Part shown: piece by piece, positions 3,504 through 44,700 of the stretch
Position numbering within the stretch: the stretch's first letter is position 1
How the letters are laid out: the number at the start of each line of letters is the position of its first letter
Source: a virus
IMG/VR virus record: IMGVR_UViG_3300019458_000053
Location: 1 to 47,393 of that record
Reading direction: 5' to 3' (one strand)
DNA length: 47,393 bases
Position numbers and translations under genes: made by a program
Notes under the pieces: model-generated
The model's input: the letters and a program-made list of their open reading frames with translations, nothing else
Database searches by the model: none
What the model was told of the DNA's origin: nothing

Positions 3504-4049
3504 ATGCCAACGGTGCGCCTGGATCGCAAAGCCCTCGAAGCGCCGACGATCGCGAGTCTGCCGGCGCGACTCTGGCGGTTGTACGTATCGCTTCGGGTCC
3601 TAGCAAATAGTGACGGCCGGGTCTTCCAGCTCGGCATCGCGGCGGCGCTGGCCGGTGATCCACAGGGCCAGGCGACCCTGCACGAACTAGTCGGCCTTCG
3701 CCGGGCACGCTTGCTCGAAATGCTACCGGACAATTCCGTGCAGATGTTCTTGCGGCAAGCCAAGGATCGCAAACCAGGCAAAGATCAGTCCGGTCAAGTC
3801 ATCGCATCAATCCCGATCCAGGGCGGCGGATCATGGGATGTCAGGCAATCGCTGGCCGATGAATTGCGGCGAGCTTTCCCCGGCGTCGACATCATCACGC
3901 AGATCCGCCGGGCGGCGATTTATTTCGAATCGGTGCCGCAGAAGCGCAAGACCGCACGCGGGATGCCGCGATGTTTGTACACATGGATGCGGCGCGAATC
4001 GTCCGGCCAGCCGGCAGGTCCACGGGCAATCGGATACCCCGACCTATGA
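3504..4049 (+). CDS. Replication initiator / helicase-loader-like protein
   Basis: This encodes 181 residues. ATG 3504 follows a perfect AGGAGG (3490-3495); a GTG at 3483 lies upstream of that site and is rejected. The N-terminal half (LPARLWRLYVSLRVLANSDGR) looks like a winged-helix region. The C-terminus (AAIYFESVPQKRKTARGMPR, then CLYTWMRRE) resembles the end of DnaT/DnaD-like phage primosome proteins. It overlaps the DnaB helicase gene by 4 bp, which supports a role in loading that helicase on phage DNA. Assignment rests on context and this C-terminal pattern. Confidence 0.6.
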   Translation: MPTVRLDRKALEAPTIASLPARLWRLYVSLRVLANSDGRVFQLGIAAALAGDPQGQATLHELVGLRRARLLEMLPDNSVQMFLRQAKDRKPGKDQSGQVIASIPIQGGGSWDVRQSLADELRRAFPGVDIITQIRRAAIYFESVPQKRKTARGMPRCLYTWMRRESSGQPAGPRAIGYPDL

Positions 4050-5353
4050 ACGCCACGACAGACGCGGAAGACGCCGTGATCGGCGCGGTCTTGATTGCGG
4101 CTGATGTCGTGCTGGCGGAAGCGCGGGATCTGCGGCCCGACGATTTCCAGAATCCTCACAACCGGCAGACCTGGGAGCATGTTCTTGCCCTGGCCGATCT
4201 AGGCGAGCAGGTCACGCTGATTGCGGTCGCCGACCGAATTCGCCTGACTGGCCATGCCCAGGACGCGCGCCTGATGGCGCAAGCGGCGGCGGCGCCGTTG
4301 GTCGAAACGATCGGCCAGGCCGTTCGCTTGGTCCGTGAAGCATCCATTCGCCGTGCCGTAATGATGATCGGCGCAGATCTCGTAAAGCGCGCCCAGGGCG
4401 GCGAAAGCGTCGATACATTGTTAGCCCAGGCCCGCGAGGCGATAGCGGGCGTCGAAATTCAAGGGACTAGAACCGGGCCAGCACATGTCGCCGATATCAT
4501 GGGCGCAGGGCTGGATGCGATCGAAGATCGCCAACGCGCACCAGAGCGCCATGGGATCCAGACCGGGATCTGGAATTACGACGCCACGATCGGTCCGCTT
4601 GGGGCCGGCAACCTGATCACGATTGGCGGACCGCCTGGCGGCGGGAAAACTGGACTAGCGATCGCGTTTGCCGATCATGCGGCTGCCCTGGGGATTCCCA
4701 CCTGTTATTTTTCGCTTGAAATGGCAACCCAGGAAATCCTCGAACGATTCCTGGCGCGGCGATCGCGGGTCAACGGCTCGACCATCCGCCGGTCGACCAT
4801 GGATCAAAACGAATGGCGACAGGTCATGCAGGCCGGCATGGCGTTACGCGAGGCACCGCTTTGGATTGACGCGCGGCCGGCGACGGTTGGGCGGTTGGTC
4901 GCCGAGATCAGGCGATGGCACGCGAAACATGTCACCCGCACCGATCGGCGGTTGGGTCTGGTCGTTGTCGATTACGTCCAGCTATTGCAAGGCGATGATC
5001 CAAGGGAAGAACAATTCGAAACGGTATCGCGGGCGACCCGCCTGCTGAAACAGACCGCCGCGGAATTGGCGATCCCGATCGTCGAACTTTCGCAATTGAA
5101 CCGCGAATCACAGAAACGTGGCGATCGCCCGACGCTTGCGGCCCTGAAAGGATCGGGAACGCTCGAAGCGGATAGCGATGTCGTGATCTTTCCCTGGCGG
5201 GAACTAAAAAGCGAAGACGACCGCAATCAACCAGGATATGCGAAATTGATCGTTGCGAAGAATCGGTTTGGCCCAAGCGGCAACATCACCGCCTGGTGGC
5301 AAGCTGACTTGGCGACCTTCACCAGCGACGGCCAGGAGGTCTTGCCGGTATGA
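4046..5353 (+). CDS. dnaB: Replicative DNA helicase, DnaB family
   Basis: This encodes 435 residues, close to the family norm. It has an N-terminal DnaB-N helical domain (about 1-110) and a RecA-like C-terminal motor. Walker A is GGPPGGGKTG near residue 194 and Walker B is LGLVVVDYVQLL near residue 303. The typical FSLEM follows Walker A, and KGSGTLEADSDVVIF lies near the end. The hexamer unwinds DNA at the phage fork. ATG 4046 overlaps the loader-like gene's stop, so this start is preferred over one 25 codons upstream. No primase or polymerase is encoded nearby, so host enzymes are presumably recruited. Confidence 0.95.
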   Translation: MNATTDAEDAVIGAVLIAADVVLAEARDLRPDDFQNPHNRQTWEHVLALADLGEQVTLIAVADRIRLTGHAQDARLMAQAAAAPLVETIGQAVRLVREASIRRAVMMIGADLVKRAQGGESVDTLLAQAREAIAGVEIQGTRTGPAHVADIMGAGLDAIEDRQRAPERHGIQTGIWNYDATIGPLGAGNLITIGGPPGGGKTGLAIAFADHAAALGIPTCYFSLEMATQEILERFLARRSRVNGSTIRRSTMDQNEWRQVMQAGMALREAPLWIDARPATVGRLVAEIRRWHAKHVTRTDRRLGLVVVDYVQLLQGDDPREEQFETVSRATRLLKQTAAELAIPIVELSQLNRESQKRGDRPTLAALKGSGTLEADSDVVIFPWRELKSEDDRNQPGYAKLIVAKNRFGPSGNITAWWQADLATFTSDGQEVLPV

Positions 5354-13926: not shown

Positions 13927-15456
13927 ATGGCCGCAGAAGCGGCAGCGCGGGCCGGGATCGAAGCCGCGCCTGATCTAACGATTCGCCACGATCGCGCCTA
14001 TGTCCGGCGGTTCGGGCTACACGGTTTCGTCGAAACTTGCTGGGGCCAGCTTGAGCCCGGTGCATTCGTCGATGGCTGGCACATCGAGGAAATGTGCAGG
14101 CACCTAGAAGCCGTCACGCGCGGACAGATCAAACGACTCATCATCAATGTGCCGCCAGGGTTTTCCAAGTCGCTGATCGTTTCCGTCTTCTGGCCGCTAT
14201 GGACCTGGATCGAGGACGCCGGCAAGAAATGGATCTTCGCGTCTTATGACCTCGGCCTGGCCTGGCGCGACGCCCGCAAGATGCGAAACGTCCTGCTATC
14301 GCAATGGTGGCACGACCGCTGGCCGCACGTCTTCCTGCCGCCGACAGAATCGAAGGCCGTTTCCGTCTTCGACAACAACCGAGGCGGATTCCGTTTCAGC
14401 ACCTCGGTTGCCGGTCCAGTGACGGGACGCCATGCCCATGTTCAGGTAGTCGACGATCCGCATAAGCCGCTTGATCTCGATGGGCTGCAGCCATCGGAAA
14501 AAAAGATCGAAATGGCGATCAACTGGTGGCGCGGCACGATGGCGACACGCACGGCAGATCCGCAAAGCATGGCCCGCGTGATCATCATGCAGCGTCTACA
14601 CGAGCGCGATCTTACCGGGGCGATGCTGGACGGCGCGCGGGAAGGTGGGGAACAATACGAGCATCTTTGCTTGCCGATGCGATACGAACCGGAGCGGCGA
14701 TGCAAGACGGCGATCGGTGGGGATCGCCGGGACGTGGTCGGTCAACTGCTATGGCCTGCACGCTTTGACGAACCAGCGGTCGCATCGCTTGAGGCGGGGC
14801 TGGTGACCGAACGAAACAAGGCAGCCCAGCTTCAGCAAAAGCCCGTTCCCGCCGGCGGAAACATCATCAAGACAGGTTGGATCAAACATTGGGGCCTGCC
14901 AGGATCCGAGGTCAACGAACTTCCGCCGATCGAGGACATGATGATCATGATGTCCTGGGATTGCCGCTTCAAGACGGAAGACACTGGTAGTTTCGTCGTC
15001 GGCCAGGTCTGGGGAATCCATCACATGATCCGGTTCTTCCTGCTCGACCAGGTCCGCGACCGCTGGGGCTTCACGGAGACATTGAGGGAATTCGAGAAAC
15101 TCTGGACGAAGTGGCGAACCGCCTGGGTCAAGCTCGTCGAGAACAAGGCAAACGGCGCGGCCCTAGCGAATGTTCTGCAGGGCCGCATCCCGGGGATCGA
15201 ACTCGATAACCCGGATGGGACCAAGGAAGAACGCCTGCAAGCCTGCGAGCCATTGTTCGAAGCCGGGGCTGTGTTCTTGCCGCCGCCCGGGCCGGCCTAT
15301 CCATGGGTTGACGGTTATGTGCATGAACTGACGAGCTTCCCGGCGGCAGCGAATGACGATCAGGTCGACGCGACCAGCCAGATCCTGAAACGCTTTGCAA
15401 AAGGGAGTAGGCTCAAGGAGTTGATGGCAGCTAATCAAGCGATGAGGGGTCGATGA
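13927..15456 (+). CDS. Terminase large subunit
   Basis: This encodes 509 residues, the usual length. The ATPase domain has a deviant Walker A, NVPPGFSKS (about residues 74-82), and Walker B VQVVDDP (about 172-178). The C-terminal nuclease has an Asp in MMSWDCRFKTEDTGSF (about residue 344) and the late DDQVDATSQIL motif (about 477), as in phage_TermL_C proteins. It cuts and pumps DNA into the prohead through the portal. It overlaps the portal gene by 4 bp. Confidence 0.95.
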   Translation: MAAEAAARAGIEAAPDLTIRHDRAYVRRFGLHGFVETCWGQLEPGAFVDGWHIEEMCRHLEAVTRGQIKRLIINVPPGFSKSLIVSVFWPLWTWIEDAGKKWIFASYDLGLAWRDARKMRNVLLSQWWHDRWPHVFLPPTESKAVSVFDNNRGGFRFSTSVAGPVTGRHAHVQVVDDPHKPLDLDGLQPSEKKIEMAINWWRGTMATRTADPQSMARVIIMQRLHERDLTGAMLDGAREGGEQYEHLCLPMRYEPERRCKTAIGGDRRDVVGQLLWPARFDEPAVASLEAGLVTERNKAAQLQQKPVPAGGNIIKTGWIKHWGLPGSEVNELPPIEDMMIMMSWDCRFKTEDTGSFVVGQVWGIHHMIRFFLLDQVRDRWGFTETLREFEKLWTKWRTAWVKLVENKANGAALANVLQGRIPGIELDNPDGTKEERLQACEPLFEAGAVFLPPPGPAYPWVDGYVHELTSFPAAANDDQVDATSQILKRFAKGSRLKELMAANQAMRGR

Positions 15457-22649: not shown

Positions 22650-23978
22650 ATGAGCCTTTCTGAAATCGTCAACGTCACGATCACAGCCGAAACGACAAGC
22701 CCGACGAGGGCAGGTTTCGGCGTTCCTCTGATTGCCGGCTACCACACCGCATGGCTGAACCGCGTACGCGAGTACACGGATCTGACGGGTCTGGTGGACG
22801 ATGGGATCGCGGCGACACATCCGATCTACCGCTGCGCGGCGAAGATCCTCGCGCAGAACCCGCGTGTCACGAAATTCAAGGTCGGGCGGCGCGGCCTGGT
22901 CCATACGCAGAAATGGCGGCTGATCCCGACGAATACAACGGAAGGCTTGGTCTACACGCTCGATTTCGTCAAGCCGGATGGAACCGCAGCGCAGGCGACC
23001 TACACGGTCGCGCCAGCGGACACGGTTGCATTGATCATCGATGGACTTGTCGCGGCGATCAATGCGCTTGCCAGCTTCGCCATGACAGCGGTCGACAACA
23101 CGACCAACATGGACCTCACCGTCGACACGCCGGGAGAGCTTTTCGATGTCGTTGTCAACAAGGAGTTGACCATCAAGGACACGACCACCGATCCTGGAAT
23201 CGCGACCGACCTCGCCGCGATCTTGACCGAAGATCCCACTGATTGGTACGGGCTGGTTCTGGACAGCAACAGTGAGGCGGAAGGCTTGGCCGCAGCCGCC
23301 TGGGCCGAGTCGAACGGAAAACTGTTGGCGGTCAACAGCTACGACAGCGAGATCCTGGATTCGATTGTCACGAGCGACTTTTTCAGCGACGCTCAAGCCG
23401 CCGGCTATGCCCGGACCTTCGGCATATGGGCCAAGGGGATCCTGTCCTACGCGGGAGCGGCGTGGATGGGCAAGCTGTTCCCGTTCGATCCGGGCACCGA
23501 GACATGGGCATTCAAGACGCTCGCCTCTGTCGTTGTCTCAAGCAACGCCGATCTGACCAGCGGCCAGCGGACGACGATCCTCAGCAAAGGCGGCAACTAC
23601 TACCATGCGGTTGCCGGCGTCTCGATCACCCGCTTCGGCAAGACGTTTGCCGACGAGTTTATCGACATCACGCGCTACATCGACTTTCTCCAGGCGCGTT
23701 TGCAGGAGAACATCTTTGGCCTGCTCGTGAATGCGCTCAAGATCCCATACACGGATGGTGGCGTGGATCTGATCAAGTCCGAGATCCTGGCGCAGTTGAA
23801 CCGCGGGATTGCAGCCGGAGCAATCGCAGCAACGCCGGCTCCGACTGTCACGGCTCCGCTTGTCGCCGATGTCGCGGCAGTGGACCGCGCCGCGCGCCTG
23901 CTGCCGGATGTGAAATTCACGGCGCAACTGGCCGGGGCGATCCACACGATTACGATCACCGGCACCTTGACGGTTTGA
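22650..23978 (+). CDS. Tail sheath protein, DUF3383 family
   Basis: This encodes 442 residues. MSLSEIVNVTITAETTSPTR, then AGFGVPLIAGY, is the standard opening of DUF3383 sheaths. WYGLVLDSNSEAE and the C-terminal tail (VKFTAQLAGAIHTITITGTL, TV) also fit. The protein polymerises around the tube and contracts at infection, so the virion is a myovirus. The tube, chaperone and tape-measure genes follow directly, the usual order. Confidence 0.9.
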   Translation: MSLSEIVNVTITAETTSPTRAGFGVPLIAGYHTAWLNRVREYTDLTGLVDDGIAATHPIYRCAAKILAQNPRVTKFKVGRRGLVHTQKWRLIPTNTTEGLVYTLDFVKPDGTAAQATYTVAPADTVALIIDGLVAAINALASFAMTAVDNTTNMDLTVDTPGELFDVVVNKELTIKDTTTDPGIATDLAAILTEDPTDWYGLVLDSNSEAEGLAAAAWAESNGKLLAVNSYDSEILDSIVTSDFFSDAQAAGYARTFGIWAKGILSYAGAAWMGKLFPFDPGTETWAFKTLASVVVSSNADLTSGQRTTILSKGGNYYHAVAGVSITRFGKTFADEFIDITRYIDFLQARLQENIFGLLVNALKIPYTDGGVDLIKSEILAQLNRGIAAGAIAATPAPTVTAPLVADVAAVDRAARLLPDVKFTAQLAGAIHTITITGTLTV

Positions 23979-24906: not shown

Positions 24907-25070
24907 AGATCCCTGGCGATGTGGATTGGTTCATCTGGAGAATTGTCGTGGCCGAAAGGTTCAAAGCAAGCCTGGCGGAAATCGAGGGCGCATGGTCCCT
25001 TGATGATCTTGTCGACGCACACGCGCTGCTAGACGCCCTGGAAGCGGCGCGGCCGGAAGGCGATCAATGA
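24445..25070 (+). CDS. Tail assembly chaperone, -1 frameshift (GT) product
   Basis: After slippage at 24828-24834 the -1 frame is open to TGA 25068-25070, which overlaps the tape-measure ATG as ATGA. The extension reads RRFGVDGGKPRRGRSRKGSG... then DVDWFIWRIVVAERF, SLAEIEGAWSLDDLVDAHAL and LDALEAARPEG. It begins with a basic linker and ends in a helical domain, typical of a T domain. The T frame has no good start codon of its own near its beginning, so frameshifting is the simplest way to express it. Confidence 0.8.
24828..24834 (+). other. Programmed -1 ribosomal frameshift site T TTT TTA
   Basis: In the chaperone frame the codons are AAT TTT TTA GGC. The heptamer T_TTT_TTA fits the canonical X_XXY_YYZ rule for -1 slippage. 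A second heptamer, T_TTT_TTC, lies 45 bases upstream (24783-24789, codons GAT TTT TTC), and the -1 frame is open from there too. The 24828 site is preferred because TTTTTTA is the stronger sequence and the GC-rich sequence just after it could form a stimulatory structure. Confidence 0.8.
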
Positions 25071-27265: not shown

Positions 27266-27622
27266 ATGCCGCTTTTGATTCCGACATCAACCGCGTTTTC
27301 CAGCTACGTCCAGCGGACGACCCTTGATGGCGTTGATTACCTTCTGCGCTTTCAGTTCAATCAGCGCCTGGGGCGATGGTTTTGCGACGTCAGGGATGTG
27401 ACCGAATCGCCGATCGCCATGGGCCTGCCAATCGTCGTCAACTATGAAATCGGGCGCTGGGTCATAGACGAAAGATGGATCGCCGGCCGGATTGCGACGC
27501 TGGATCAAGAGGCTGCCGACGACCAGGCGGCGATCGATCCCGGGCTTCGGGATCTTGGCGCGCGTGTCTTGATGACGTACCTGGAAGCTGAAGAATTGGC
27601 CGAGATCGAAGCCGCAGGTTGA
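27266..27622 (+). CDS. Baseplate plug protein
   Basis: This encodes 118 residues. Residues 12-60 (SYVQRTTLDGVDYLLRFQFN, QRLGRWFCDVRDV) and the downstream PIAMGLPIVVNYEI match the phage baseplate plug family: a strongly typed F(R/Q)xNxRxxRWxxDV pattern. It lies between the Dit-like and hub genes as usual. The protein closes the bottom of the tube before injection. Confidence 0.78.
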   Translation: MPLLIPTSTAFSSYVQRTTLDGVDYLLRFQFNQRLGRWFCDVRDVTESPIAMGLPIVVNYEIGRWVIDERWIAGRIATLDQEAADDQAAIDPGLRDLGARVLMTYLEAEELAEIEAAG

Positions 27623-27626
27623 AACC

Positions 27627-28472
27627 ATGCCGCAATTATTCCGTCGATCTTATGCGTTGACCGTTGATCAGCTTCGGATCACCGATCTGGACGTAGCCTT
27701 CGGCGTCCATCGGACCATGAAACCAGAGCCGAACACGGCGGAAATTACGATTCGAAATCTGCATCCCGACAACCGCAAGCGCACGGAAGAAAAACGGCAT
27801 GTCGGTGTCGTGCTTGAAGCGGGGTATGCGCCACCCGGGGAAATGTCGTTGATCTTTGCGGGCGATCTTCGCGAGGTCCATACGATGCGGGACGGGCCGG
27901 ATCTGCTGACCGTCTTATCGTCAGGCGACGGTGAGGAGCAGCATCGAAAGGCGCGGGTCAATCGATCATTCCCACCCGGGATCAGCATCCGCAAAGTCAT
28001 CGAAGCCGCCGCCGAGGCGATGGGCGTAGGTGTCGGGAATCTCAACGCACTTTCACAGGTCGAATTCCCAGGGGCCGGTGCGGTGTTCCCTGGCGGGACG
28101 GTCCTATCGGGCAACGTGGCCCAGGAACTGGCTGATGTACTGCGATCGGCGGGCCTGGAATATTCGATCCAAGGCGGCGTGCTTCAGATTCTAACCAGGC
28201 GCAAGGCCCTGGAAGGGACCGCCCTCGTTCTATCATCGGATTCTGGGATGGTAGGAACGCCAAGCGTCTCCAGCGATGGCACCGCACGCGCTTCGCTGCT
28301 GATGGCACCTGATATTTTTCCCGGCCGAAAAGTCGAATTTCGCGCCGAGAATCTCATCGGCGTCTATCGCGTCGAAACCGCGCGCTATTCCGGCGATACG
28401 GCCGGGGCGGACTGGACGATCGAAATCGAATGTCAGCCGATCAAAGGCGCGACCGTAATTTTCCAGACGTGA
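27627..28472 (+). CDS. Baseplate hub protein (gp27/gpD-like)
   Basis: This encodes 281 residues. LDVAFGVHRTMKPEPNTAEI followed by TIRNLHPDNRK is the opening of the phage hub family related to late control D and gp27. The middle (SFPPGISIRKVIEAAAEAMG; LEYSIQGGVLQILTRRKALE) fits the hub's second barrel. The hub holds the central spike encoded next. Assignment is by motif and order. Confidence 0.8.
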   Translation: MPQLFRRSYALTVDQLRITDLDVAFGVHRTMKPEPNTAEITIRNLHPDNRKRTEEKRHVGVVLEAGYAPPGEMSLIFAGDLREVHTMRDGPDLLTVLSSGDGEEQHRKARVNRSFPPGISIRKVIEAAAEAMGVGVGNLNALSQVEFPGAGAVFPGGTVLSGNVAQELADVLRSAGLEYSIQGGVLQILTRRKALEGTALVLSSDSGMVGTPSVSSDGTARASLLMAPDIFPGRKVEFRAENLIGVYRVETARYSGDTAGADWTIEIECQPIKGATVIFQT

Positions 28473-29806: not shown

Positions 29807-30991
29807 GTGCCTGGTCCTTTCGGTGTAGTCCCAACCGGATTCAACAGCAAGACGCTGGAAGAAATCATGACGGAGATCCAGGATAGCCAGCTTGCGAACA
29901 TTTCGCCGACGTTAGATCTGGCGACCGAATCTCCGCTGGGCCAGATCAACGGGATCTTCGCGTCGCAGCTTCGAGAATTATGGGAGCTCGCCGAAGCTTG
30001 CTATCACGGGTTCAACCCGGACGGTGCGGTCGAAGCGCAGTTGACGGTCCTGGCGCTGCTGACGGGAACGCAGCGCCGGGCCGCGACGAAATCAACCGTG
30101 CTTTGCAATTGCACGTTGGCCGTTGGAACCTACAACGCTGGCGATCTGATAGCGCATGTCAATGGCAGCCCAGATTCGCGCTTCACGAACACGTCCGATG
30201 TGACCAGCCCTGGCGGGTTGGTGTTAGACATACCGTTCGAGGCCGAAGATACCGGCCCGATTGCCGCAGCGGCCGGGCAGCTTACCGTCATTGCCGAGCC
30301 AGTTTCTGGCTGGACGACGGTAACGAACCCATTGGACGCAGAGCTTGGGGCCGATATCGAATCAGATGCGGCGTTGCGAAATCGCCGGCTGATCGAGCTT
30401 TCAACGGCCGGCAGCGAAAGCGTCGGTGCGATCCGTGCGGAGGTTTCGGGGATCGATGAGGTCTTGAGCGTTCAAGTTCTCGAAAACGTCACGGATGCGA
30501 CCGACGCAAATGGACTGCCGCCGCATTCATTCGAGGTTTTGATCTGGGACAATGCCGCGGATGACGACGCAATCGCCCAGGCGATATGGGATAGCAAGCC
30601 GGCCGGGATCCAGGCTTACGGCACGGGCGAATCAGGCACGGCAACGGATGACACCGGCGATGATCAAATCGTCGAGTTCAGCCGCATCACCGTGCGGGAT
30701 GTGTACCTTGAAATCGATCTCGATGTAGACGCGACAACCTATGGGGCGGGCGGCGACCAGGCGGTCAAGGACGCTGTTGCAACATTCGGGGATCAGGAAT
30801 TCGGGATCGGCGAAGATATCATTCTGGCCGCGCTCTATGCTGCGATCTTCTCCGTCTCGGGCGTCAATGACGTGCTGGAAATCCGCGCTGGTTTCAGCGC
30901 AAGCCCGACCGGGACGGTGAATCTAGGGATCGCATTGCGCGAGGTCGGCGACCTGGACACCAGCCGGATCGTCGTTGATTCGACGCCATGA
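29807..30991 (+). CDS. Baseplate wedge protein, gpJ-like
   Basis: This encodes 394 residues with a GTG start after GGAGGTGA, an excellent ribosome site. Features are FNSKTLEEIMTEIQDSQLAN, then LGQINGIFASQLRELWELAE and DAALRNRRLIELSTAGSESV, the common gpJ core pattern. The C-terminal beta-domain (LEIDLDVDATTYGAGGDQAV) follows. It joins other wedge proteins to the fibres. The stop overlaps the giant fibre gene. Confidence 0.85.
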   Translation: MPGPFGVVPTGFNSKTLEEIMTEIQDSQLANISPTLDLATESPLGQINGIFASQLRELWELAEACYHGFNPDGAVEAQLTVLALLTGTQRRAATKSTVLCNCTLAVGTYNAGDLIAHVNGSPDSRFTNTSDVTSPGGLVLDIPFEAEDTGPIAAAAGQLTVIAEPVSGWTTVTNPLDAELGADIESDAALRNRRLIELSTAGSESVGAIRAEVSGIDEVLSVQVLENVTDATDANGLPPHSFEVLIWDNAADDDAIAQAIWDSKPAGIQAYGTGESGTATDDTGDDQIVEFSRITVRDVYLEIDLDVDATTYGAGGDQAVKDAVATFGDQEFGIGEDIILAALYAAIFSVSGVNDVLEIRAGFSASPTGTVNLGIALREVGDLDTSRIVVDSTP

Positions 30992-34962: not shown

Positions 34963-35651
34963 TGCCTGGCCAGCCGTATCCCTATGACGGCGAGTGGGAA
35001 ATCGCGAGCGGCGAAGGCGAGGTCCTGCTGGCCGAACTTGCCGATGATCTTGACGTGTATGCGTCCTCGATCCCATGCAAGCTGGCGGGCGAGGTCCAGG
35101 TCGCGGCGGGCGTCACGGTACGCGTGCGCCTACGTCTAGGCGGCACATCTGGTGTTGCGGATGGGACAATCGCCGTGACAGCCGATCTTACGTCGACAAC
35201 ATGGACGGCATTTCTTGCCTCCGGCACGCCGGTCAATCCGGGCGGTAGCGCGCCGATCAAGCTCACGGCCCAGGTCGTCGCTGGTGCGGGAATAGCTGGT
35301 GTTCGTGGCGTCGTCGCAAGCCTGGATCCCTTGGTGGCGGGCGCAGACGTGACGGATCCGGTCGTGGTTTTCAATCCGCCCGACATGACCGAGATCGCGG
35401 CAGGGACCACGATCCATGTGACCGTGACGGATAACATCGGCCTGCGCGTGTCGTTTCTTTGGGCGACCTTCGATTCCGGCTTCTGGGAGGTCATCCATGA
35501 TGGCGATGACTACAGCCCGACCTACGCGAGCGAGTCGACGCGAGACGTTGTGCCGGGCGGATTCGCGTACCACCTGAAGCGCCGTGGCGGCTGGCCTTCG
35601 GCTCCAACGATTCGCGCGAAGCCGCTTGATCTCTCGGGAAATGAACCATGA
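34962..35651 (+). CDS. Beta-sandwich protein with C-terminal Ig-like domain
   Basis: This encodes 229 residues. Residues about 1-120 repeat the domain of the preceding gene. Residues about 128-229 (DPVVVFNPPDMTEIAAGTTI, then HVTVTDNIGLRVSFLWATF...) look like a bacterial Ig-like / fibronectin-type domain. Ig-like domains on phage virions bind host surface sugars weakly. The gene is probably part of the adsorption apparatus. Confidence 0.65.
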   Translation: MPGQPYPYDGEWEIASGEGEVLLAELADDLDVYASSIPCKLAGEVQVAAGVTVRVRLRLGGTSGVADGTIAVTADLTSTTWTAFLASGTPVNPGGSAPIKLTAQVVAGAGIAGVRGVVASLDPLVAGADVTDPVVVFNPPDMTEIAAGTTIHVTVTDNIGLRVSFLWATFDSGFWEVIHDGDDYSPTYASESTRDVVPGGFAYHLKRRGGWPSAPTIRAKPLDLSGNEP

Positions 35652-38112: not shown

Positions 38113-38604
38113 ATGGGTCTGATCATCCCGGCCGGCATCGATGCGATCCGGCTGACCTACGGGGACGCGCGGGCTGCATTGGATCATGATGGCGAAATGT
38201 CGCCGGCCTTGGAAGTCGCGTGGCGAAAAAAGATCCTCGCGCCCTTGAAACTTCCGCGTCCGATTCCACTACGGACGGGCAAGACCCTATCGACGATCTG
38301 GGTCCACGCCAAGGTCGCGCAGGTTTTCGGCGCGGCCTTCCGGGCGATCGATGATGCTGGACACTGGCCGTTGCTGGTGACGTTTGACGGTTGTTACGCG
38401 TTTCGCGCGAAGCGCGGGCTGGACAAGTTATCGACGCACTGCTGGGGAATCGCGGTGGATCTGAATGCCGCAACAAATCGCCTCGGGGCCACGCCAACAA
38501 TACGATCTGAAATCGTCGCGGCCTTCGAGGTACAGGGTTGCCGCTGGGGCGGGCGCTGGAGACGACCGGACGGGATGCATTTTCAAGCATGTACGGGATA
38601 TTGA
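38113..38604 (+). CDS. Endolysin, M15-type (VanY-like) peptidase
   Basis: This encodes 163 residues. The zinc-peptidase signature STHCWGIAVDLNA places His109 and Asp116 as ligands, and DGMHFQ near the end gives His156. This SxHxxGxAxD...MHF set is typical of M15_4 L-Ala-D-Glu or D-Ala-D-Ala peptidases of phages. It would cut peptidoglycan cross-bridges at the end of infection. There is no signal peptide, so it needs a holin-type exit. Confidence 0.88.
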   Translation: MGLIIPAGIDAIRLTYGDARAALDHDGEMSPALEVAWRKKILAPLKLPRPIPLRTGKTLSTIWVHAKVAQVFGAAFRAIDDAGHWPLLVTFDGCYAFRAKRGLDKLSTHCWGIAVDLNAATNRLGATPTIRSEIVAAFEVQGCRWGGRWRRPDGMHFQACTGY

Positions 38605-38605
38605 C

Positions 38606-39085
38606 GTGCTGATCATCGGGATCGACGCAGCCACGCAATTGACCGGCTGGGCCGTCGTCCAGCCAGGCCCGGGGATCCCGAAATTGATCGCTTCGGGGAT
38701 CGTGGCCGGCACTGGCGCACAGCAGATCCTCGCTCTGGCCCAGGCGTGGGGACCCAAGATCCATGCGGCGGCGGTCGAGGAGCCGTATCTGGATCCGGCG
38801 AAGGGCGTCGGCACGATGCGCAAATTGGCGGGCGCGACAGAGCGCTGGTTGATGGCCTGGGACCTCGCCGGCGTGCCATGCCGTGCCATTCGCGCGCAGG
38901 AATGGCAGACGGGCGTACTAGCGGGCCTGGCAGGCCCGCGGGCCGATAGGGCGACGCGGAAACGTGCTGCAGGCATCTGGACGCGGTCGCAGTTCGGCGT
39001 GGCGCTCTCAGAGGATGTCGCCGACGCCGCGTGCCTGGCCTTCTGGGAAGGTCGCCGGCTGGCGTTCGGCCGGCGGGCTGCATAA
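38606..39085 (+). CDS. RuvC-like Holliday junction resolvase
   Basis: This encodes 159 residues from GTG 38606, one base after the endolysin stop. The RNase H-like fold is marked by IIGIDAATQLTGWAVV (Asp7), AAAVEEPYL (Glu about 58-59) and LSEDVADAACLAFWEG (Asp about 140). This is the acidic-triad order of RuvC-type crossover junction nucleases, known in phages for resolving replication and recombination branches before packaging. It is followed by a long non-coding region. Confidence 0.75.
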   Translation: MLIIGIDAATQLTGWAVVQPGPGIPKLIASGIVAGTGAQQILALAQAWGPKIHAAAVEEPYLDPAKGVGTMRKLAGATERWLMAWDLAGVPCRAIRAQEWQTGVLAGLAGPRADRATRKRAAGIWTRSQFGVALSEDVADAACLAFWEGRRLAFGRRAA

Positions 39086-39356
39086 CGAGGTCTGGGGCGG
39101 CTACCATCGCAGCCGAGGGCTGCCAGGGGCCAGCCCGGGCGGATCTAGCCCGATCCCTTCTGGGCTCTGATCTGTCCGTCGGTCCGCGCGCTCGCCGGCA
39201 AATGCCGCAGCTTGCTCGCTATGTCGCCGCCCGGCGTCGACTGGGCCAGCGGTATGTCGCCCGGCCGAAACCGGGGTGCTGGATCGGGCGATCCTCACCG
39301 GGAGGATCCGGCCTATCGATCGCCCATCCCAAGACGCAGCGCACAGTGGCCGACCG

Positions 39357-39408
39357 ACGAACGCTTTGACCTACGGGCTGTCTGCTGTAGACTCTCATCA
39401 GCGTTCGT
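39357..39408 (+). promoter_or_regulatory. Promoter flanked by 9-bp inverted repeat
   Basis: TTGACC (39366-39371), a 16-bp spacer and TAGACT (39388-39393) form a plausible sigma70-type promoter. It lies within an inverted repeat, ACGAACGCT (39357-39365) and AGCGTTCGT (39400-39408). The arms could be the binding site of a repressor that covers the promoter, or simply form a stem-loop. Transcription would start near 39400 and cross the 17-bp hairpin into the lipoprotein gene. Confidence 0.5.
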
Positions 39409-39430
39409 TCGGTTGGCACCGCGACGTTAC

Positions 39431-39470
39431 ACGGCCCTGGGTCTGGATCGCAAGATCCACCTGGGGCCGT
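39431..39470 (+). ncRNA. 17-bp hairpin with GCAA (GNRA) tetraloop, candidate RNA element
   Basis: ACGGCCCTGGGTCTGGATC (39431-39449), loop GCAA, GATCCACCTGGGGCCGT (39454-39470) pair along 17 positions (two of them G-U) with only a two-base bulge (CT, 39442-39443). The closing pair and tetraloop match the very stable GNRA class, which also makes tertiary or protein contacts. There is no T-tract after it, so a simple terminator is unlikely. Confidence 0.5.
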
Positions 39471-39631
39471 GGCATATTTGGGCGAAAGAGCGCGTGTTTT
39501 TCGATGGCTGCGACATAGAAGGTTGCGACTAGAACCACCGGGTGGCGCGCGATGGCCGCGCAGACGACGGCCCCGCGCGCCCAGCATCCAGGACTCTTGA
39601 TTCTCAGGAACGAATCGCGCACGGTGATCGT

Positions 39632-40198
39632 ATGCGATCTCGTATAGGATCTGCGCGTTGGTTTCTGGCGCTACTGATGGGATGCGCGCCGGCCGCGTCG
39701 ATTTTGCCGCCGCAGGATGGTAGCGGGATTTCCGATGCGCTCAACGAAACGATCGAAGCGGACGCGGACCAGGCGGAAACGCCGGCCGCAGATCGTGATA
39801 TCGAATCCTCTGGAGACGCTGCTTCCGGTGATGCGCCGGCTAACGACTCTGATCGAGAATTACCTGGAAGCGAAAGCCAGCGGGACGGATCCGCAAGCGA
39901 ATTGATCGCGGCCGATCCATGCGCAGGTTTCGAGCAACGCCTGGTGTCACCTGGTTTCTGTTTGCGCGTTCTGGGCCAGCACGAAACACGCATCGATCTT
40001 GACGCCTGCGAACCAAAGGCAATGCGCGGCTGCGAGATCATTCGCAATATGGGCCAATGCAGCGGATCGTTCCCCGCGCCGAATTGCGTGAACGGTTCGC
40101 TGTCATTCTATTTGCGCGCGCCGATCGATGGATCGATTGCGGTCCAGGTTGGCCGCCTGCTGGACGACGGTCAGACCTGTAGCTGGTCCTGCAACTAA
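39632..40198 (+). CDS. Cysteine-rich secreted lipoprotein
   Basis: This encodes 188 residues. A basic start and hydrophobic stretch end in a lipobox: RSRIGSARWFLALLMGC (Cys at about residue 17). An acidic, disordered-like linker (about 30-88, rich in Asp, Ser and Ala) follows. A globular end has about nine cysteines (CAGFEQRL, GFCLRV, DACEPKAMRGCE, MGQCSGSFPAPNCVNG, TCSWSCN), likely disulphide-bonded outside the cytoplasm. It resembles the layout of phage-encoded superinfection-exclusion lipoproteins, but no family is recognised. The leader appears long and structured. Confidence 0.65.
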   Translation: MRSRIGSARWFLALLMGCAPAASILPPQDGSGISDALNETIEADADQAETPAADRDIESSGDAASGDAPANDSDRELPGSESQRDGSASELIAADPCAGFEQRLVSPGFCLRVLGQHETRIDLDACEPKAMRGCEIIRNMGQCSGSFPAPNCVNGSLSFYLRAPIDGSIAVQVGRLLDDGQTCSWSCN

Positions 40199-40214: not shown

Positions 40215-40532
40215 GTGGCGAGGCGATTCGCGATCGTCGATGTCTACGACGAAACGTCCGGCGCGTGCACGCGCCTCGCAGGACCGTGCGAATCAACCGT
40301 CTGCCGGCACGCCCTGGTCGAGCGCACGAGCCTGGGACGATTGCGCGATCGACATCGCTCGCAGGATCTGGCGACGAATTGTTCGATCCGCGAGGCGCGC
40401 GCGAATCCTGATGGGATGACGTTGGAAATCGTCGCCGGCAAGATCGGGCTAACCCGGGAGCGCGTCAGACAGATCGAATCGCAGGGCCTACAAAAATTGG
40501 CGTTTTTAGGCCGAAAAATGGGCCGTTTTTAG
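40215..40532 (+). CDS. Sigma-70 region 4-like regulator
   Basis: This encodes 105 residues from GTG 40215 (AGGA five bases before). The C-terminal NPDGMTLEIVAGKIGLTRER, then VRQIESQGLQKL, is a sigma region 4 helix-turn-helix. The N-terminal part has GPCESTVCRHAL and TNCSIREA, the Cys/His pattern seen in the phage region-4-only proteins that read RPCPYxSCRxHL. It has no region 2, so it cannot melt DNA alone. It may redirect host RNA polymerase to phage promoters or act as an ordinary repressor/activator. Promoter B lies just after its end. Confidence 0.75.
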   Translation: MARRFAIVDVYDETSGACTRLAGPCESTVCRHALVERTSLGRLRDRHRSQDLATNCSIREARANPDGMTLEIVAGKIGLTRERVRQIESQGLQKLAFLGRKMGRF

Positions 40533-40614: not shown

Positions 40615-40887
40615 ATGAAAACCAACGAAACGACCGATTACGCCGCCCGCGCTGCCGTCGTCGCCGCCGCCGCCTACGCCCGCGTCGCCGCCGTCGCCGC
40701 CAACGCCGCCAACGCCGCCCGCGTCGCCGCCGTCGCCGCCTACGCCGACGCCACCGACGCCGCCCGCGTCGCCGCCGATGTCGCCCGCGCCGCCGCCGCC
40801 CGAGCATGCGCCGACGCCACCGACGCCGCCCGTGCCGCCGAGGTTGCCGCCGCCCATGCCGCCCGCGTCGCGTCGCGTAGCTCGTAG
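40615..40887 (+). CDS. Alanine-rich helical repeat protein
   Basis: This encodes 90 residues, about half of them Ala; CAGGAGACACC precedes the ATG. After MKTNETTDY the sequence is AAxAA-type helix: ARVAAVAANAANAARVAAVA, then ADATDAARVAA and ADATDAARAAE, two 11-residue lines set 22 residues (66 bp) apart. The spacing 11 is that of ideal Ala-rich single helices such as type I antifreeze proteins, though no such role is claimed. It is driven by promoter B and ended by a strong hairpin. It is related in style to the split gene at the window ends. Confidence 0.65.
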   Translation: MKTNETTDYAARAAVVAAAAYARVAAVAANAANAARVAAVAAYADATDAARVAADVARAAAARACADATDAARAAEVAAAHAARVASRSS

Positions 40888-40893
40888 CGCCTC

Positions 40894-40917
40894 GGGGCCG
40901 GTGACAGCACCGGCCCC
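40894..40917 (+). terminator. Perfect 10-bp GC hairpin after Ala-rich gene
   Basis: GGGGCCGGTG, loop ACAG, CACCGGCCCC gives an uninterrupted 10-bp stem starting six bases after the stop codon. No T-tract follows, so it may act as an mRNA-stabilising or partial-termination hairpin between two genes with near-identical starts. Confidence 0.5.
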
Positions 40918-40958
40918 GCACGCTGCGCACTACCGCACAGCAAACCAAAGGAGACACC

Positions 40959-41378
40959 ATGGAAACCAAGACCAACGAAACGACCGAACCCAAGAAAACC
41001 CGCACCATCACGTTGACCGGCCGCCGGCCGGTGCGCATCATCGAGGAGGACTGGCCCATCGTCGCGCGCGGCAAGTACCGCGACTGGGACACCGAGCACG
41101 AATGCCAGGCCAACCGCACGACGGATCTCAGGATCGTCGTCCGCCAGCACGCGGACGGTCGCGCGGTTGTCTATGGCGTGTACCTGTACGATACGACGTA
41201 CGCGAACGCGCGCAACGTCGAGGTGAAGATCGGGCATCTAATCCCGGCCGGCGGTAGCCTGCCGGACGCGATCCGCGAGGTCGCGGGCGACCTGTCGTCG
41301 CACGATGAGATCGACGGCGAGATCATCCGCGAGGTCACAGCCAGGTGCATGGCCGATTTGCCCGCCGAGGAAATCTAG
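40959..41378 (+). CDS. Conserved phage hypothetical protein
   Basis: This encodes 139 residues with an AAAGGAGACACC leader. Its start METKTNETTEPKKTR shares the TNETT line and leader with the Ala-rich gene before it. The body (ITLTGRRPVRIIEEDWPIVA, RGKYRDWDTE; IVVRQHADGRAVVYGVYLYD) is a compact alpha/beta domain that I have seen in many metagenomic phages without function. The acidic end (DLSSHDEIDGEIIREVTARC) is helical. Confidence 0.7.
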   Translation: METKTNETTEPKKTRTITLTGRRPVRIIEEDWPIVARGKYRDWDTEHECQANRTTDLRIVVRQHADGRAVVYGVYLYDTTYANARNVEVKIGHLIPAGGSLPDAIREVAGDLSSHDEIDGEIIREVTARCMADLPAEEI

Positions 41379-41384
41379 GCGAAA

Positions 41385-41432
41385 CGGCGGCGCGATTGTG
41401 CGTCGCCGTCTCGCGGGGCTGGCCGCCCGCGA
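41385..41432 (+). other. Two adjacent hairpins in intergenic gap
   Basis: CGGCGGCGC (41385-41393) pairs with GCGTCGCCG (41400-41408) with one G-U, loop GATTGT. It is followed directly by TCGCGGG (41411-41417) pairing with CCCGCGA (41426-41432). No T-tract is present. They lie six bases after the preceding stop codon and before the AAATAAACCAA leader of the next gene. Confidence 0.45.
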
Positions 41433-41467
41433 CTGACGAGCTAGGCCGGAAATAAACCAAGGTGACC

Positions 41468-41773
41468 ATGACCCAGATAATCCTGACCAACCCGATCGCG
41501 CGTACCAGCGATCCGGCGTCATCCCATGCCGCAGCCGTCGCAATCACACGCGACGGAACACGCGGCGAACAGGCAGCGGAAGTTCTCGCGGGGCTCCAGC
41601 GCCATCCCGGCCTGACATCGCGTGAGCTTGCCGTCCGGGTCGGGCTTGATCGCTATGTCGTCGCTCGCCGCCTGCCCGAGCTCGCCCAGGCGACGCCGCC
41701 GCGCGCGCGAAAGGGCGATAGCCGGTTGTGCCATCAGTCGGGACGCCTGGCTTGCACGTGGTGGCCGCTGTGA
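41468..41773 (+). CDS. Winged-helix DNA-binding protein
   Basis: This encodes 101 residues. ATG 41468 follows AAGGTG; GTG 41462 is the alternative. EQAAEVLAGLQRHPGLTSRE, then LAVRVGLDRYVVARRLPELA, is a MarR-like winged helix, and the C-terminus (KGDSRLCHQSGRLACTWWPL) resembles the wing of a phage wHTH family in which a Cys/Trp line ends the protein. It may be an early regulator. Confidence 0.7.
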   Translation: MTQIILTNPIARTSDPASSHAAAVAITRDGTRGEQAAEVLAGLQRHPGLTSRELAVRVGLDRYVVARRLPELAQATPPRARKGDSRLCHQSGRLACTWWPL

Positions 41774-42751: not shown

Positions 42752-42970
42752 ATGGCACGCGTGACAGAAATCAGGCGGCGAGCGATGGCGGCCAAGGGAT
42801 TCTTGACCCTGCCAGATGCAGCCGCAGCCACGAAACACGGACGCAATACGCTGGATCATTGGCGGCGCGCGGAAAAATTGCGCGCTATTTTCGAGGGCGG
42901 GGCCTGGTGGACGCGCGTCGCGTGGGTCGAAGCCGTCGACAAACGACATGCGCGAGCGGCTGGTGGTTGA
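42752..42970 (+). CDS. Small helix-turn-helix protein (excisionase-like)
   Basis: This encodes 72 residues, starting at the base after the previous stop with GGAGGA upstream. FLTLPDAAAATKHGRNTLDH, then WRRAEKLRAIFEGG, is like a MerR/excisionase winged helix that reads helix, turn, recognition helix, wing. It may be a regulator or DNA architectural factor. No integrase is seen, so excision itself is not implied. Confidence 0.65.
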   Translation: MARVTEIRRRAMAAKGFLTLPDAAAATKHGRNTLDHWRRAEKLRAIFEGGAWWTRVAWVEAVDKRHARAAGG

Positions 42971-43764: not shown

Positions 43765-44700
43765 ATGATTCGCCCGTCTGCCTTGGCGCTGGCCGAGAAG
43801 TGCGGCCTATCAGTCCAGCTTGCCGATCAGTTTCCCGAACAGGGACCGTGGGCCGAAGCCGGCAAGATGATCCATGCCGAGATCGAAGCGTGGGTCAAAG
43901 ATAAAGCAGAGCCGATCAGCCCGGCCGCGGTCGCAGCCTGCGATATTTTACGTGCTTATGACGATTGGATCATCCGCTGCGAGGAACGAATTGCCCTGCG
44001 CGATCCTGAGACCGGCGAGGAAATCACGAGCGGGACACCGGACATCGTCGCGATTGGACCGGAAAACCAGATCGTCATCATCGATTGGAAGACGGGTTGG
44101 GCTGGTCACGTCCCAGAGCCTGATCAGAATCTGCAGTTGCTGGCATATGGTGCGGCAGCGATGGTCGAATGCAATGGGTCGAGCCTGCAAGTCGTGATCG
44201 CAAAGCGGCTGTTTGACCCGGCGAAACGCAAGATCGAGCATTCGCGGATCTATCGGCCGGATGAAATCTGGCCAATCATAGATCGTATCCAGGCGATCCA
44301 GACGAAGGCTGCGCGTAAAGCCGAGGCGACACGCGGCGTGCATTGCCGCGATTGTTTCAGCCGCTCGCACTGCTACGCCTGGGTTTTGCCAGCCCATGAA
44401 GGTCCTGGCGCATTGGTTCCATTCACGCAGCCGGCCGCGGAATTGACGAATGATCAACGGGTCCGAGCCTTGCTTGCCTGCGATGCGATGGAAGAAATCG
44501 TCGACCTGGTCCGCGCCAGAATTCGCGCTGATGTTGAATCCGGCGTTGACGTGATCGCTGATGGCAAAACCTATCGGCCAGTTTCGGCGAAGGGCAAAGA
44601 ATCAGCGTCAATCAAGGAACTACGAGCGGCCGGAATGGAACAGTTCATTCGGCGTGGTGCTGATTACGTGCAATGGCGCTGGGTCAAGGACAAGATATGA
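43765..44700 (+). CDS. PD-(D/E)XK exonuclease (DUF2800 / Cas4-like)
   Basis: This encodes 311 residues. SGTPDIVAIG (Asp about 92) and IVIIDWKTGWAG (Asp107, Lys109) are the PD-(D/E)XK core. A QLLAY-type motif (NLQLLAYGAAAMV) follows. The Cys group (HCRDCFSRSHC, about 193-203) resembles the iron-sulphur or zinc site of Cas4/AddB-like and DUF2800 nucleases. Working with the RecT-like protein encoded just before, it should resect DNA ends to make 3' overhangs. Confidence 0.85.
   Translation: MIRPSALALAEKCGLSVQLADQFPEQGPWAEAGKMIHAEIEAWVKDKAEPISPAAVAACDILRAYDDWIIRCEERIALRDPETGEEITSGTPDIVAIGPENQIVIIDWKTGWAGHVPEPDQNLQLLAYGAAAMVECNGSSLQVVIAKRLFDPAKRKIEHSRIYRPDEIWPIIDRIQAIQTKAARKAEATRGVHCRDCFSRSHCYAWVLPAHEGPGALVPFTQPAAELTNDQRVRALLACDAMEEIVDLVRARIRADVESGVDVIADGKTYRPVSAKGKESASIKELRAAGMEQFIRRGADYVQWRWVKDKI

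Follow-up and report, generated by a model that had tools for sequence, protein, structure and literature searches.

A structured non-coding gap at the late/early gene junction of a phage contig: a probable early promoter/operator region with a structured leader

The 546-nt gap at positions 39086 to 39631 of the phage contig analyzed here is probably an early promoter/operator region with a structured leader. Read in this way, it would control transcription where the late and early genes of a myovirus meet. The host's RNA polymerase would initiate at ca. 39400 from a TTGACC-16-TAGACT promoter and head right, and the transcript would cover a lipoprotein gene, then the gene of a small protein with sigma-70 region 4 and, probably, other early genes downstream. 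The repeat arms that abut the -35 hexamer and the transcription start would serve as operator half-sites, at which a regulator switches the promoter on or off, and a leader of ca. 230 nt would place stable hairpins at the 5' end of the RNA. For a phage with an early region that lacks close relatives in the collections searched, this would provide a concrete control region made up of a promoter, a candidate operator and a leader. A leader with a function of its own as RNA would count as a new phage RNA; failing that, the gap would be an ordinary phage control region from an unstudied lineage.

Gene order and the non-coding gap

The window, that is, the whole stretch of DNA that was analyzed, is a contig of 47,393 bases from a single virus record, with a GC content of ca. 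61% and almost all of its genes on the + strand; it ends without a terminal repeat, so its completeness is not proven. The genes run from a DnaB-like helicase (3971-5353) through the large terminase (TerL, 13927-15456), the portal and capsid genes, the tail sheath (starting at 22650), the tape measure, baseplate J (starting at 29807), a DUF2612 baseplate protein (starting at 35648) and an M15 endolysin (38113-38604), and the late run closes with a RuvC-like Holliday junction resolvase (38603-39085, + strand; PHROG 1770, E 2e-8). Past the gap, the early/replication side begins with a lipoprotein gene (39632-40198, + strand), whose translation displays a signal peptide and an LLMGC lipobox and for which family searches gave no match, followed by a small sigma-70 region 4 protein (40215-40532, + strand; PF04545, E 4e-8, above cutoff), a winged-helix protein (41468-41773), RecT (starting at 42816), an exonuclease (starting at 43765) and replication genes. 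As the gap has lysis and RuvC genes before it and the lipoprotein, regulators, RecT and DnaB on its far side, we place it where the late genes give way to the early/replication genes.

Other features were observed on both sides of this junction. The sigma-70 region 4 protein, a helix-turn-helix product of the second gene past the predicted promoter, is a candidate regulator of host RNA polymerase. Further downstream, an alanine-rich and repetitive 90-aa ORF (40615-40887, + strand), which had no Pfam match, is followed by an 11-bp perfect hairpin (40893-40918). The strongest local RNA fold of the contig (25041-25200, + strand; z about -7 in a 160-nt scan and -4.5 against 200 shuffles) spans the start of the tape measure gene, is overlapped by a 49-aa ORF (24921-25070), and is possibly a translational control or frameshift signal.

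The coding potential of the gap was scored with a codon model trained on this phage's own genes, which themselves score 0.04-0.49 per codon. All ORFs that occupy a large part of the gap (39031-39369 and 39212-39532 on the + strand, 39219-39587 on the - strand) scored below zero, while two shorter ones were weakly positive (31 aa, 39552-39647, + strand, 0.13; 74 aa, 39398-39622, - strand, 0.15); a protein-coding frame was rejected on the basis of this model. With its main ORFs negative, and as the longest stretch of the contig without a plausible gene in the gene model, the gap is indeed the gene-free half kilobase that a preliminary description had pointed out. The accompanying remark that genes elsewhere abut holds mainly for the late module, as the gene model has further gaps of 120-460 bp, chiefly in the early region.

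Folding of the gap and readings at the DNA level

Compared with dinucleotide shuffles of the same sequence, the folding energy of the whole gap is lower by 36 kcal/mol (z -4.8 on the + strand, equalled by none of 100 shuffles; z -4.1 on the - strand). Among consecutive 546-nt segments of the contig, it has an excess of -39 kcal/mol where the mean is -3.7 (sd 9.3), and the next-best non-overlapping segment reaches -24, making the gap the most structured of its length; some coding stretches of the contig also fold over-stably. The inverted repeats noted earlier are present: hairpins tile the gap almost fully, and the four whose arms contain 8 or more perfect bp are the maximum for any 546-nt segment. 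The folding excess is located in 39341-39670 (z -6.1 on the + strand, -3.35 on the - strand), and the three strongest elements are an inverted repeat at 39350-39416 and two hairpins, at 39430-39471 and 39604-39668, the latter extending beyond the interval first described (39086-39631). Folded by itself, the first half of the gap shows no such excess (z about -0.9).

Two hairpins were examined in the upstream half. Hairpin B (39136-39178, + strand; 10 + 7 bp, z -4.9), located 50 nt past the RuvC stop codon and lacking a U-tract, possibly marks the end of the late transcript. A wider version of this idea is that the gap is mostly a terminator region of the late operon, in which hairpins end late transcription and the remainder is relaxed sequence with remnants. 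The position and strength of hairpin B, directly past RuvC, agree with it, but U-tracts are absent and the promoter inside the repeat would be left unexplained; we consider it very unlikely. The other hairpin, GGGCGATC/GATCGCCC (39286-39325, + strand), is not significant alone (z -1.8). It had been depicted as nested around GATCCTC/GAGGATC; the two pairings share a GATC and are thus mutually exclusive alternatives.

Dense palindromes had also led to the proposal of a replication origin, a DNA-level element with the palindromes as initiator sites. The inverted repeats are dense and fold on both strands (z -4.1 on the - strand), and a distant relative, G004, likewise has gaps rich in inverted repeats. 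Against this, the DnaA-box pattern had no match anywhere in the contig, and neither a GC-skew switch nor a clearly AT-rich stretch was found (local AT is at most 48%); a GATC/Dam-type origin was rejected, as GATC is frequent genome-wide (14 per kb) and not enriched in the gap. The proposal is thus unsupported, and an origin here seems very improbable indeed, although iterons of a phage-specific initiator could conceivably be present. A packaging site (cos/pac), also suggested earlier, fared no better: the palindromes do lie close to a phage module boundary, but the gap is ca. 24 kb downstream of the TerL gene in the contig and ca. 22 kb upstream of it if the contig is circularized. It also lies away from the contig ends, which argues against a contig-end artefact. 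That either of these explains the gap is extremely improbable.

Promoter, surrounding repeat and predicted leader

The sigma-70-like site TTGACC-16-TAGACT (39366-39393, + strand) scores higher than any other such site in the window, whichever strand is considered. It carries only nine of the 12 bases of the sigma-70 consensus, which counts against the promoter reading; its -35 and -10 hexamers fall within a spacing of 16-18 bp, and it is one of two such sites in 3.3 kb, against 0.5 expected. The site exactly fills the 34-bp loop of the imperfect long inverted repeat at 39350-39416 (z -5.2 on the + strand, -4.0 on the - strand), the arms of which lie at 39350-39365 and 39400-39416. A search that required 8 perfect pairs, a score of 15 after extension, no more than one bulge and a loop of up to 60 returned this single repeat in the window, in comparison to 0.08 expected per shuffled contig, and further copies of the arms were found at chance level only. 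A repeat above chance therefore adjoins the promoter, the arrangement sought for a promoter with an operator repeat. With one arm just 5' of the -35 hexamer and the other at the predicted start, the arms are most simply read as a pair of regulator sites, a candidate operator pair. Because the 5' arm would be missing from a transcript that starts at ca. 39400, the repeat would work at the DNA level, or else in RNA only when transcription reads through from upstream.

Downstream of the promoter, the predicted 5' leader RNA of ca. 230 nt (39400-39631, + strand) was assessed over 39400-39660 (z -3.1, one of 200 shuffles being as good). It comprises an 18-bp hairpin with a 2-nt bulge and a GCAA (GNRA) tetraloop (39430-39471; z -7.0 on the + strand, -4.8 on the - strand), a direct repeat, GATGGCTGCGAC / GAAGGTTGCGAC, that forms a weak hairpin (39503-39529, + strand; z -1.95), a GC-rich hairpin (39540-39590, + strand; z -2.9), and a 24-bp interrupted hairpin that holds the sequence GGTGATC together with the ATG of the lipoprotein gene (39604-39668; z -4.2 on the + strand, -2.6 on the - strand). 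The GC-rich element had been reported as a 13-bp stem at 39543-39583; its stem is in fact interrupted, with 8 plus 5 to 7 bp. GGTGATC, which we take to fit the sequence complementary to the extreme 3' end of 16S rRNA, is possibly a ribosome-binding site. Since the first gene would have its start codon enclosed in the last hairpin, translation of the lipoprotein is probably regulated or kept low.

The three elements that were folded on both strands (39430-39471, 39346-39420 and 39604-39668) all had a better z on the + strand. The wobble-type mismatches in the stems, which give a strand-neutral count, were unbiased (13 G-T vs 11 A-C); the better folding of the + strand thus supports RNA only mildly, and a function as RNA rather than DNA is not proven. 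Judged from the sequence, the best promoter-like site of the contig, the unique repeat around it and the downstream hairpins favoring the + strand argue for the mid-gap promoter with a long regulatory leader envisaged in the preliminary description. The independent small RNA offered there as an alternative is less likely: from 39400 to the lipoprotein gene, the + strand contained no site resembling an intrinsic terminator, which favors a leader over a separate transcript.

A related scenario is that of a free-standing structured non-coding RNA, produced from the internal promoter or by late read-through, which would act as a ribonucleoprotein, decoy or regulator. That no other stretch of this length in the contig folds as strongly, that hairpins nearly tile the gap and that no Rfam family matches it would fit such an RNA, but the same missing terminator, the continuation of the last hairpin into coding sequence, the ordinary folding of the first half by itself and the lack of homologues in the collections searched all speak against it, and we find it fairly unlikely. 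Likewise unlikely is a new class of structured phage RNA, 230-550 nt long, that the gap would encode and that would be made at the late/early switch as a riboregulator or ornate RNA.

None of the Rfam covariance models (including GOLLD, ROOL, OLE and ribozymes) reached its gathering score in the gap, and permissive thresholds returned just two weak chance matches to animal miRNAs (E 0.43 and 9.6). Rfam families and self-cleaving ribozymes were accordingly rejected as candidates there, as was a hammerhead-like core seen by eye (CTGATGAG, minus strand, 39394-39401), which no Rfam family match backs. Elsewhere in the contig, a Type II hammerhead ribozyme was matched at 41377-41450 on the + strand (RF02276, 46.2 bits, E 2e-6; core CUGACGAG); it begins at the stop codon of 40959-41378, upstream of the winged-helix gene and downstream of the promoter. 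Type II hammerheads have been reported in bacteria, and hammerheads in phage intergenic regions (PMC3088659).

Homologues were sought by scanning viral contigs with the RuvC, lipoprotein, DUF2612, RecT, TerL, major capsid, DnaB and endolysin proteins and genomes with RuvC and the capsid protein, and by DNA searches of phages and plasmids. The collections searched held no homologues of RuvC or the lipoprotein, no close relatives of RecT or DnaB, and no convincing match to the gap sequence. Relatives share the structural module only, with a capsid identity of 38-89% (89% in a 15.7-kb contig that ends before the gap region, 38-59% in the others). Over-folded gaps, with no sequence similarity to the one described here, were also present in the relatives G004, G008 and G007. 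In the distant relative G004 there are two gaps with strong inverted repeats, 38157-38687 and 27463-27938 (coordinates of the contig after reverse-complementing and rotation to terminase), both unlike the gap of the window in sequence. Their z-scores range from -4 to -7 on either strand, and a 32-bp direct repeat, CTAGTGGATTTCATTGGTCAAAGTGGGACCCA, lies in one of them.

Comparison with known systems

GOLLD and ROOL are large phage RNAs often found near tRNA islands (PMC12286853). As in the gap, they are phage-encoded, hundreds of bases long and dense in helices (PMC12286853), whereas the gap has no Rfam match, the 47.4-kb window has no tRNA genes, and no homologues were found in the collections searched. 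Ordinary 5' leaders that hide a start codon are comparable in that, here too, the start codon and part of the possible ribosome-binding site would lie in a stable hairpin; they differ in that no ligand or binding protein is known for the predicted leader, the function of which would follow from structure prediction alone.

The early/late control region of phi29 has the promoters A2c-A2b-A3 with inverted-repeat sites for p4 (PMC3100819). As read here, the gap resembles it as a phage early promoter region with inverted repeats, which in phi29 are bound by a phage regulator to switch transcription (PMC3100819). The repeats bound by p4 are A-tracts separated by spacers of 15 bp and arranged around early and late promoters, whereas the gap described here has a single predicted promoter that fills a 34-bp loop in GC-rich sequence. 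The parallel with phi29 is an analogy of working and not one of membership.
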